DNA from: a virus
DNA: 28,746 bases
Strand: one strand, 5' to 3'
Virus record (IMG/VR): IMGVR_UViG_3300021185_002091
Coordinates: 1 to 28,746 of that record
The translations under genes and the position numbers were made by a program. This document shows positions 17,749-21,467 of the stretch, one piece after another. The first letter of the stretch is position 1; each line of letters starts with the position of its first letter. The notes below the pieces were generated by a model. That model saw only the letters and a program-made list of their open reading frames with translations, ran no database searches and was not told the DNA's origin.

Positions 17749-18414
17749 ATGAAAATATCAAGTGAAACTATTAACATCCTGAAAAACTTTTCGGGAATAA
17801 ATGCGAATTTAGTCTTTAAGCCTGGAAAGGAACTTAAGACTATTTCCGAAGCAAAAACCATTATGGCCAATGCATCAATCCTAGAGGACTTTCCTCAAAC
17901 GTTTGGCGTGTATGATCTTAATGAATTTTTGTCTCTGTACAATCTTATGGATGAACCTGACTTAGAATTTAGCGATAAGTTCTTAACAATGTCTGATGGT
18001 TCTCAAAGGATTAAGTACTACTATTCTGAGATTGAGATTCTTACACAACCTAGTAAAGATATCAATATGCCAGAGTGCGAAGTTATCCTAGATCTTTCGG
18101 CCACAAACCTAGATAAGATTAGGAAAGCTGCTGCAGTTCTTGGACATTCAGAATTAGCTTTCAGTAGTCGAGGTGGCGGGGTCATTGCTTCTGTATTCAA
18201 TGAGAAAGATTCTACTGCGAATACATTTGACATTGATCTAGGCACATCATCTACTGAAACCTTTAATTACGTATTTAGTATTTCAAATCTGAAAATGCTA
18301 CAAGGTGATTATAAGGTATCGATTTCATCTAGGCTAATCTCCAACTGGAGAAATGCGGATAATCCTTTGGATTATTTTATCGCTTTAGAGAAATCATCAA
18401 GTTTCGGTGTATAA
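17749..18414 (+). CDS. gp45: DNA polymerase sliding clamp gp45
   Basis: Trimeric clamp that tethers gp43 to DNA and, in T4, also activates late transcription through gp55. The 221-aa product agrees with T4 gp45 (about 228). The N-terminus MKISSETINILKNFSGINANLVFKPG is the familiar clamp start (sxxTxxILKNFxxIN), and the alternating beta-strand/helix pattern with DYFIALE near the end fits the PCNA-like fold. The gene is directly followed by a late promoter for the next gene, whereas the clamp loader genes follow further on. Confidence 0.93.
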   Translation: MKISSETINILKNFSGINANLVFKPGKELKTISEAKTIMANASILEDFPQTFGVYDLNEFLSLYNLMDEPDLEFSDKFLTMSDGSQRIKYYYSEIEILTQPSKDINMPECEVILDLSATNLDKIRKAAAVLGHSELAFSSRGGGVIASVFNEKDSTANTFDIDLGTSSTETFNYVFSISNLKMLQGDYKVSISSRLISNWRNADNPLDYFIALEKSSSFGV

Positions 18415-18417
18415 ATA
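18410..18417 (+). promoter_or_regulatory. Late promoter, TATAAATA, before 92-aa gene
   Basis: Exact TATAAATA overlapping the gp45 stop codon. Predicted start near 18423 gives a long leader (about 98 nt) with two hairpins. Confidence 0.85.
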
Positions 18418-18436
18418 ACTATGCACAGAAAAAATT

Positions 18437-18452
18437 CTCATAATATTATGAG
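18437..18452 (+). repeat. 16-nt perfect palindrome in late leader
   Basis: CTCATAATATTATGAG is its own reverse complement. As RNA it could fold as a short stem-loop; as DNA it could be a dimeric protein site. It lies between the late promoter and the shared leader hairpin. Confidence 0.5.
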
Positions 18453-18460
18453 GATAATAC

Positions 18461-18489
18461 GAGAAGATGCCGAATTGGTCGGGTCTCTC
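18461..18489 (+). promoter_or_regulatory. Shared leader RNA hairpin, copy 1
   Basis: The 19-mer GATGCCGAATTGGTCGGGT (18466-18484) is identical to one at 20957-20975. Inner stem: CCGA pairs with TCGG around ATTGG. Outer stem: GAGA(A)GA (18461-18467) pairs with TCTCTC (18484-18489) with one bulged A. The outer stem sequence differs from copy 2 yet still pairs, which suggests selection on RNA structure. Similarity to copy 2 continues to the ribosome site GGAGAAACAAA. Confidence 0.7.
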
Positions 18490-18520
18490 ATAATTAGTCT
18501 ACTTTGCAAAGGAGAAACAA

Positions 18521-18799
18521 ATGACTGAACTACAAGATAAAGTCCTTCCATCAGAAGGCGAAGAGCAACAAGCTCCACAACTGTCTCTACAAGACATCGC
18601 AACTTTCGTACAGATTATCGATATCTGTTCTAAAAGAGGCGGTTTTGAAGGACAGGAAATGGAAGCTGTTGGTGGTCTAAGAAACAAGACTGTAGCATTT
18701 CTAAATGCTGCATCTGAAGCTCAAGGACAAGATGCTCCACAGGGTATGGTACCAGAAGGTGCCGATCTACCTGAAACAGTTGAAGCTGAAGAAGCTTAA
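18521..18799 (+). CDS. Conserved hypothetical late protein (92 aa)
   Basis: A 92-aa acidic protein. The middle segment LQDIATFVQIIDICSKRGGFEGQEMEAVGGLRNKTVAFLNA (about 23-63) looks like a compact helical domain and resembles small proteins I recall from cyanophages, none with a known role. The C-terminus is disordered-looking and Glu/Pro-rich. It has its own late promoter, the shared leader hairpin and a G/C-rich terminator, so it is an independent late unit placed inside the early replication cluster. A virion-associated or assembly role is an inference from timing only. Confidence 0.75.
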   Translation: MTELQDKVLPSEGEEQQAPQLSLQDIATFVQIIDICSKRGGFEGQEMEAVGGLRNKTVAFLNAASEAQGQDAPQGMVPEGADLPETVEAEEA

Positions 18800-18865: not shown

Positions 18866-19123
18866 ATGGATCGCAATGAAACATCACGCTTAATTGAAGC
18901 ACTCAAAAAGGGAACTGTTACAGTAACCTTTCAAAAGGTTGACTCAGACGAAATTAGAGTTATGCCTTGTTCTCTCAACCCAATTGTTCTAGAAGCTAAT
19001 GGCGTTAAAACCGTTATCGAAAACGTAGATCCAAGCACTGATCATATCGCTGCTTGGTCTTTGGATAAAGACGCATGGCGTTCTTTTAGACTAGATACAG
19101 TTCTTGGTTGGGAGGTACTATAA
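18866..19123 (+). CDS. WYL_2 / SH3-barrel fold protein
   Basis: An 85-aa protein with the pattern TVTVTFQKVDSDEIRVMPCSL (about 17-37) and the C-terminal AAWSLDKDAWRSFRLDTVLGWEV (about 62-84), which fits the WYL_2 (DUF2693) family of small Sm-like SH3 beta-barrels seen in T4-like phages. The role is unknown; nucleic-acid binding is suspected from the fold. The ribosome site is GAAGGA. Its stop codon directly abuts the gp44 start, so it is cotranscribed with the clamp loader. Confidence 0.75.
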   Translation: MDRNETSRLIEALKKGTVTVTFQKVDSDEIRVMPCSLNPIVLEANGVKTVIENVDPSTDHIAAWSLDKDAWRSFRLDTVLGWEVL

Positions 19124-20942: not shown

Positions 20943-20950
20943 TATAAATA
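20943..20950 (+). promoter_or_regulatory. Late promoter, TATAAATA, before hsp20
   Basis: Exact TATAAATA; predicted start near 20956, inside the outer stem of the shared leader hairpin. Confidence 0.85.
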
Positions 20951-20951
20951 A

Positions 20952-20981
20952 ATGTGGATGCCGAATTGGTCGGGTCCACAT
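20952..20981 (+). promoter_or_regulatory. Shared leader RNA hairpin, copy 2
   Basis: ATGTGGA (20952-20958) pairs perfectly with TCCACAT (20975-20981). The internal TGCCGAATTGGTCGGG is identical to copy 1 at 18468-18483 and contains CCGA/TCGG with an ATTGG loop. If transcription starts at 20956, only GGA/TCC of the outer stem remains in the RNA. The downstream sequence to GGAGAAACAAA also resembles copy 1. Confidence 0.7.
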
Positions 20982-21011
20982 ATTAATCTTGCTTTAAATA
21001 GGAGAAACAAA

Positions 21012-21467
21012 ATGGTAAGAAATACTATGAACGTACCGCGTTCACTATTCATTGGATTTGATCCAATATTAAATGAACTTGAAAGAATCCACCAAGCTGG
21101 AAGATCTCAGGACAACTATCCACCCCATAACGTCGTAAAGATCGATAATGATAACTTCAATATCGAACTCGCTGTTGCAGGATTTTCGGAAGAAGATATT
21201 GCAGTTGAAGTTAAGGATGGTATTCTTTTAATTAAGGGTCAACATGTTGATGACGATGAACGTGAATATGCGCACAAAGGGATTTCATCCCGCAAATTTG
21301 AGAAGTCCTTCCGACTCTCTGAATTTGTCGTAATAGACGGGGCCAATCTTGTGAACGGAATACTTGTGGTGAATGCCAGGGTTGAAGTTCCAGAAGAAAG
21401 GCGTCCTAGGAAGATCGAAATCGGGTCTGCTGGGGCATCAAAGAAGAAGGAATTTATTCAAGAATAG
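21012..21467 (+). CDS. hsp20: Small heat-shock protein (Hsp20/IbpA family)
   Basis: ATP-independent chaperone with an alpha-crystallin domain. The 151-aa product starts MVRNTMNVPRSLFIGFDP, like IbpA-type proteins. The crystallin domain runs from about 37 to 130 (PPHNVVKIDNDNFNIELAVAG, then EVKDGILLIKGQH and SRKFEKSFRLSEFV), with the C-terminal IEIGS. The frame is open upstream to 20952, through the leader hairpin, but AGGAGAAACAAA marks 21012 as the real start. Hsp20 genes next to gene 43 are usual in cyanophages. The late promoter points to a role in virion assembly or late protein folding. Confidence 0.93.
   Translation: MVRNTMNVPRSLFIGFDPILNELERIHQAGRSQDNYPPHNVVKIDNDNFNIELAVAGFSEEDIAVEVKDGILLIKGQHVDDDEREYAHKGISSRKFEKSFRLSEFVVIDGANLVNGILVVNARVEVPEERRPRKIEIGSAGASKKKEFIQE

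Follow-up and report, generated by a model that had tools for sequence, protein, structure and literature searches.

Organization of the locus

The small heat-shock gene hsp20 is located in a T4-like replication block of the window, the 28 746 nt stretch of viral DNA analysed here, in which the gp45 clamp gene is followed by the 92-aa gene, the 85-aa gene and the genes for gp44, gp62, RegA, Hsp20 and DNA polymerase gp43, in that order. The leaders of hsp20 and of the 92-aa gene share a hairpin, and their features are as follows (window positions, with the evidence in parentheses).

18410–18417, + strand: late promoter TATAAATA of the 92-aa gene, sharing bases with the end of gp45 (sliding clamp) and found in most relatives of this leader (sequence)
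18435–18454, + strand: a further hairpin, UUCUCAU/AUGAGGA, 5' of hairpin I in the 92-aa leader (90% of cells paired, compensatory changes at three pairs)
18461–18489, + strand: copy of hairpin I in the 92-aa leader (fold; 31.3 bits with model R1; independent covariation; weak ROSE_3 match)
18498–18515, + strand: candidate Shine–Dalgarno (SD) hairpin UCU-A-CUU / UGCA / AAG-G-AGA of the 92-aa leader (sequence)
18521–18799, + strand: 92-aa protein, phrog_13789, function unknown (phrog match; AlphaFold2)
20943–20950, + strand: T4-type late promoter TATAAATA of hsp20, directly 5' of hairpin I (sequence)
about 20956, + strand: presumed late start site of hsp20 (T4 TATA-box spacing; stem pairing from nt +6 in relatives)
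20952–20981, + strand: hairpin I of the hsp20 leader (fold; model R1; covariation; ROSE_3 match)
20987–21005, + strand: hairpin II of the hsp20 leader, the proposed thermosensor (de novo RNAalifold; covarying outer pair; predicted melting)
21012–21467, + strand: hsp20, small heat shock protein with an alpha-crystallin domain (Pfam PF00011, E 1.6e-17; phrog_432, E 4e-35)

An earlier, sequence-only reading of this DNA had noted that the two leaders share the 19-mer GATGCCGAATTGGTCGGGT, and indeed there are exactly two copies in the window, both on the + strand (18466–18484 and 20957–20975), where 0 are expected by chance even with up to three mismatches (100 shuffles). Folding computed for each copy reproduced the hairpin drawn in that reading, namely (AUGU)GGA-U-(bulged G20960)-CCGA / AUUGG loop / UCGG-G-UCC(ACAU) before hsp20 and GAGA(A)GA-U-(bulged G18469)-CCGA / AUUGG / UCGG-G-UCUCUC before the 92-aa gene, with folding z-scores of -3.9 and -2.2, respectively. 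The hsp20 hairpin scored 41.3 bits (E 5e-11) against model R1, in the training set of which the window copy is included. Other details required amendment. Both copies lie behind a late promoter as described, but whereas TATAAATA adjoins the hsp20 hairpin, the other promoter is 43 nt 5' of its copy; the outer stem is paired in both copies, but relatives preserve its pairs only from about nt +6 after TATAAATA; CCGA/UCGG, the inner stem, is invariant within the window but elsewhere varies with compensation; and the supposedly shared tail before the ATG, an A-rich run after GGAG, is one base shorter in the 92-aa leader.

The T4 late TATA box is located approximately one helical turn 5' of the transcription start (PMC2988020). 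Across 122 leaders, the lower stem of hairpin I is 93–100% paired at nt +6 to +10 after TATAAATA and 46–61% paired at +1 to +4. Since stem pairing starts at about +6, in agreement with the T4 TATA spacing, the hsp20 transcript should open with hairpin I, whose outermost pairs (AUGU), located between promoter and presumed start site, are probably not transcribed. A second hairpin, with a CUUGCU anti-SD motif, had been missed in the earlier reading: in it UCUU(G)CU (20987–20993) pairs with the SD sequence AGGAGA (21000–21005), and the ATG of hsp20, 6 nt 3' of this hairpin, is left outside.

The 92-aa leader has a conserved order of its own, consisting of TATAAATA, the extra hairpin with its covarying pairs, then hairpin I, an AGUCUA that does not vary, and the SD sequence. 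The pairs of its candidate SD hairpin are conserved and almost invariant, and hence give no covariation signal. An alternative helix, GGAUAAU/AUUAGUCU (18450–18500), is near-invariant with two covarying pairs; by its sequence, UCU could pair either with the upstream GGA or with the AGA at the SD sequence, hinting at a possible switch. The GATAAT of this leader resembles a -10 box, and its spacing to hairpin I is about that of TATAAATA in hsp20. The 92-aa protein gave no Pfam match and no PDB relative, and AlphaFold2 predicted a two-helix hairpin with modest confidence (mean pLDDT 72). Directly 3' of it, the 85-aa protein (18866–19123) matches a WYL_2 (Sm-like) domain (E 2.8e-7).

Similarity to ROSE_3 elements

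The shared hairpin had been taken to match no known element. This view did not hold, for at relaxed thresholds Rfam gives ROSE_3 (RF02523) as the clear best match to the whole hsp20 leader (20952–21017, full model, 31.4 bits, E 2.4e-5). The match to the 92-aa leader is weaker (19.8 bits, E 0.028). The next-best family for the hsp20 leader, freshwater-2 RNA (RF02980), was weak (20.9 bits, E 0.13) and was set aside. At the curated threshold Rfam gave no match here, the ROSE_3 cut-off being 43 bits against 31.4 bits for the hsp20 leader; this cut-off, which is the curator's threshold and not a structural feature, was reached by no phage tested. In order, the ROSE_3 consensus contains GAUGCCGAA...CGGGUC, ACUcGCU, AGgAG and AUG, and nearly all the matches listed in a scan of bacterial genomes with a ROSE_3-like pattern belonged to Pseudomonas or its close relatives. 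Contigs labelled as Bifidobacterium and Rhodobacteraceae metagenome-assembled genomes also match the Pseudomonas-type pattern, and are possibly mis-binned.

The hsp20 leader (20952–21011) has the features by which ROSE elements are recognized: it is the 5' UTR of a small heat-shock gene, it begins with a stable hairpin of the ROSE_3 type, and in its 3' hairpin a U(U/C)GCU motif pairs with the SD sequence around a bulged G. The 92-aa leader (18461–18520) has a hairpin I of the ROSE_3 type but no U(U/C)GCU motif, its anti-SD sequence being UCUACUU. It is thus near certain that the hsp20 leader has a ROSE-like two-hairpin layout, and it likely acts as a thermometer, a temperature response that we infer.

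Covariation of the two leaders

Thirty-four diverse hsp20 leaders were aligned with MAFFT and folded unguided with RNAalifold, which recovered both hairpin I and the SD/anti-SD hairpin. In this alignment 92.6% of cells were paired, compared with 79.4% after shuffling, and the covariation score was 0.40 compared with 0.16; in both cases 0 of 500 shuffles reached the real value, and sliding the partner column by one lowered pairing to about 55%. Double changes were found at eight of the nine hairpin I pairs, even the core CCG pairs co-changing in a few lineages; the least change was at the bulged G and at the U.G pair beneath it. At the flank of hairpin II, at the positions immediately preceding CUUGC and following AGGAG, there were 58 C:G, 20 U:A, 2 C:A and 0 U:G combinations, a bias whose Fisher P value of 7e-17 is inflated because the sequences are related. 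An A precedes CUUGC in 21 of 101 leaders and is mostly unpaired there.

For the 92-aa leader, 94.2% pairing over the whole structure compared with 86.7% after shuffling (0 of 500), and its hairpin I covaries strongly and independently of that of hsp20. The compensatory changes in relatives support the earlier proposal of a cis-acting, covarying RNA element in leaders behind late promoters. The hairpin had also been described as duplicated; what the window contains is rather two conserved leaders on two genes, and since both recur across phages with separate compensatory changes, a local duplication is ruled out.

Distribution among phages

The sequence-only reading had staked its proposal on further copies in related phages, and these proved abundant: in marine T4-like phages at large the hairpin again lies 5' of hsp20 and of the 92-aa gene. 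A scan of IMG/VR for an exact 17-mer gave dozens of contigs with the hairpin 5' of hsp20 or of the 92-aa gene, together with unrelated chance matches. When TATAAATA was followed by GATGCCG within 3–9 nt and the 3' arm was left free, about 75 different leaders with a paired 3' arm were obtained, and the downstream gene, wherever readable, was hsp20. GC-rich or in-gene matches of the DNA pattern scans, which are without leader context, were put down to chance. Hairpin I loops vary from GAAA-type tetraloops up to longer stems. Among loci picked by Hsp20 protein similarity alone, all 80 (36 distinct leaders) had hairpin I, YUYGC and TATAAATA; in shuffled leaders hairpin I appeared in 40 of 1600.

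Of the named phages, C48C1, HTVC008M, Melnitz-3, Mosig, S-PM2, P-SSM4, ACG-2014d, S-CAM1, P-SSM7, S-SCSM1, S-RIM12, ACG-2014f and Pseudomonas phage Paride were each found by a structure parser to have hairpin I and YUYGC before hsp20, a layout that shuffles of these leaders seldom reproduced. In S-SSM4 and P-HM1 it is visible by eye if likely mis-annotation of the hsp20 starts is allowed for, and among the named phages examined it is absent from S-TIM5. The annotated hsp20 start looks wrong in P-HM1 (NC_015280; 151), being a GTG inside hairpin I, and in S-SSM4 (HQ316583; 277), where a better ATG lies upstream, behind an SD sequence. Paride belongs to another family (Arenbergviridae) and has hairpin I and CUUGC before hsp20 (108–207). 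In whole-record searches ROSE_3 matched the hsp20 leaders of Melnitz-3 (E 1.6e-6), C48C1 (E 1.3e-4) and, weakly, P-SSM4 (E 0.28). The element is near-universal on hsp20 of the marine T4-like phages examined, well-studied cyanophages and pelagiphages included, and is carried by some cyanophage leaders even though no TATAAATA was found there.

In long phage records ROSE_3 hits the leaders of hsp20 and of the 92-aa gene, and R1 and RF02523 together match essentially only these two on long contigs, on which ground a general late-mRNA element was rejected. An extra R1 match on one 101-kb contig falls within coding sequence, and the DLP_6 match scores weakly and includes non-standard pairs; there were further weak matches besides.

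Predicted melting of the hsp20 leader

For the window's hsp20 leader alone, the predicted SD/anti-SD pair probability was 0.91 at 5 °C, 0.83 at 20 °C and 0.53 at 42 °C, a gradual melting, while predicted pairing of hairpin I stayed at about 0.98 or above from 5 to 42 °C. Over 106 leaders, the SD sequence was predicted to be paired at 10 °C with a mean of 0.89, compared with 0.67 when the spacers were shuffled. Runs that took in coding sequence and shuffled all of the upstream part failed to separate real from shuffled leaders, whereas leader-only runs with spacer-only shuffling did so; when everything 5' of the SD sequence was shuffled, some coding sequence included, SD closure was as strong as in the real leaders. 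Nearest-neighbour energies also leave out the non-standard pairs of ROSE elements. As the broad shuffle does not discriminate and such pairs are ignored, we treat folding energies as supportive evidence of little weight by themselves. Marine hosts experience a modest temperature range, which counts against a thermometer.

Proposed function and comparison with known systems

Our working hypothesis, which we consider quite probable, is that the hsp20 leader (about 20956–21011) is, as part of a phage late mRNA, a short ROSE-like RNA thermometer of two hairpins, its start site and temperature response being those presumed above. Transcription would start at about 20956, so that the stable hairpin I would cap the 5' end of the mRNA. 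In the cool, CUUGCU would fold onto the SD sequence AGGAG to form hairpin II, and the mRNA for the small heat-shock chaperone would be poorly translated; upon warming, hairpin II but not hairpin I would melt, and the ribosome site would open.

In bacteria, small heat-shock genes are already known to carry ROSE-like thermometers. In the Pseudomonas ibpA leader, U(U/C)GCU masks the SD sequence in the second of two hairpins, and on warming hairpin II melts while hairpin I does not (Krajewski et al., PMC3669281). The phage leaders share with this ROSE_3 element a length of about 60 nt, the location before a small heat-shock gene, a hairpin I of the form GAUGCC...GGGUC with a bulged G, and a hairpin II in which U(U/C)GCU pairs with the SD sequence and the start codon lies outside. 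They differ in that they often stand behind a T4-type late promoter, in that hairpin II is A+U-rich and weaker, the loop region is 3–9 nt and ROSE_3 scores do not reach the curated cut-off, and in the reuse of hairpin I on an unrelated gene. Classical ROSE elements of rhizobia and E. coli ibpA, which likewise precede small heat-shock genes and pair U(U/C)GCU with the SD sequence in their thermosensing hairpin, comprise three to four hairpins (PMC3669281) rather than two. The cyanobacterial hsp17 thermometer likewise masks the ribosome site in a small heat-shock gene leader, but by a single hairpin (PMC4477652), whereas the cyanophage leaders have the two-hairpin ROSE-like layout. In the open-access literature searched, we found no report of ROSE thermometers in phages or cyanophages, and a ROSE-type leader in phages seems not to have been described previously. 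As the layout is near-universal on hsp20 of the marine T4-like phages examined, viruses of a dominant marine group may adjust a chaperone to temperature in this way.

What the 5' hairpins of ROSE elements do is, according to PMC3669281, not fully understood. Hairpin I looks like a separable module, either a 5' stabilizer or a protein site, because its copy before the 92-aa gene is without U(U/C)GCU and because more distant phages have the 92-aa gene without a hairpin I leader; a separable module would explain the reuse. The same distribution suggests that hairpin I may have been recruited to the 92-aa gene later. Its presence by itself on another gene, whose ribosome-site hairpin differs, makes the role of the first ROSE hairpin testable.

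One alternative, doubtful but worth weighing and compatible with thermosensing, is that hairpin I is chiefly a protein-binding operator, by which Hsp20 would repress its own leader until clients titrate it away, like IbpA in E. coli, with the 92-aa gene as a second target. The same bulged-G hairpin is indeed present before a gene that encodes no chaperone and has a different anti-SD sequence, and E. coli IbpA binds the ibpA 5' UTR in a manner that requires Arg93 (PMC10474464). Hsp20 is thus the leading, if indirect, candidate binder, since IbpA represses its own leader via Arg93 and most phage Hsp20s keep this residue: among 114 of them the equivalent is Arg in 101, that of the window included, and Lys in 13, while the Tyr34 site is always aromatic and the Arg97 site always Lys or Arg. 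The Hsp20 of C48C1 likewise has Lys. The likeness to IbpA self-repression extends to translational control at a chaperone gene leader, as proposed here for the phage, and a mostly retained critical arginine, RNA binding by the phage protein being putative. Against this, IbpAs of alpha- and gamma-proteobacteria have Arg93 in general, so that it is unspecific evidence, Lys at this position is inactive in E. coli yet present in the 13 phage proteins, the Lys98 site is unconserved, and the RNA site of IbpA is not placed on hairpin I in the text consulted (PMC10474464). A further step, that hairpin I is read in trans, most likely by phage Hsp20, and links hsp20 and the 92-aa gene in a small regulon, we hold to be unlikely; if true, such a regulon would sense protein aggregation as well as temperature, and would give the first ROSE hairpin a function.

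Distinctly improbable, in our opinion, is that hairpin I merely stabilizes the 5' ends of abundant late mRNAs against 5'-end-dependent decay. Its stem does start at the presumed transcription start, and a stabilizing role has been proposed for hairpin I in Pseudomonas (Krajewski et al., PMC3669281), but a pure stabilizer needs neither a conserved U-G bulge nor the GAUGCC/GGGUC core, would be expected on many late genes and not two, and leaves the covariation of hairpin II unexplained; moreover, in the clade of the window about 40 nt separate the copy before the 92-aa gene from the presumed 5' end. That the hairpin is a DNA-level downstream part of the late promoter, or a chance local duplication, is scarcely credible despite the close, regular spacing to TATAAATA at hsp20, given its occurrence in cyanophage leaders in which that promoter was not found, the variable distance from TATAAATA to hairpin I before the 92-aa gene among relatives, and dozens of compensatory double changes.
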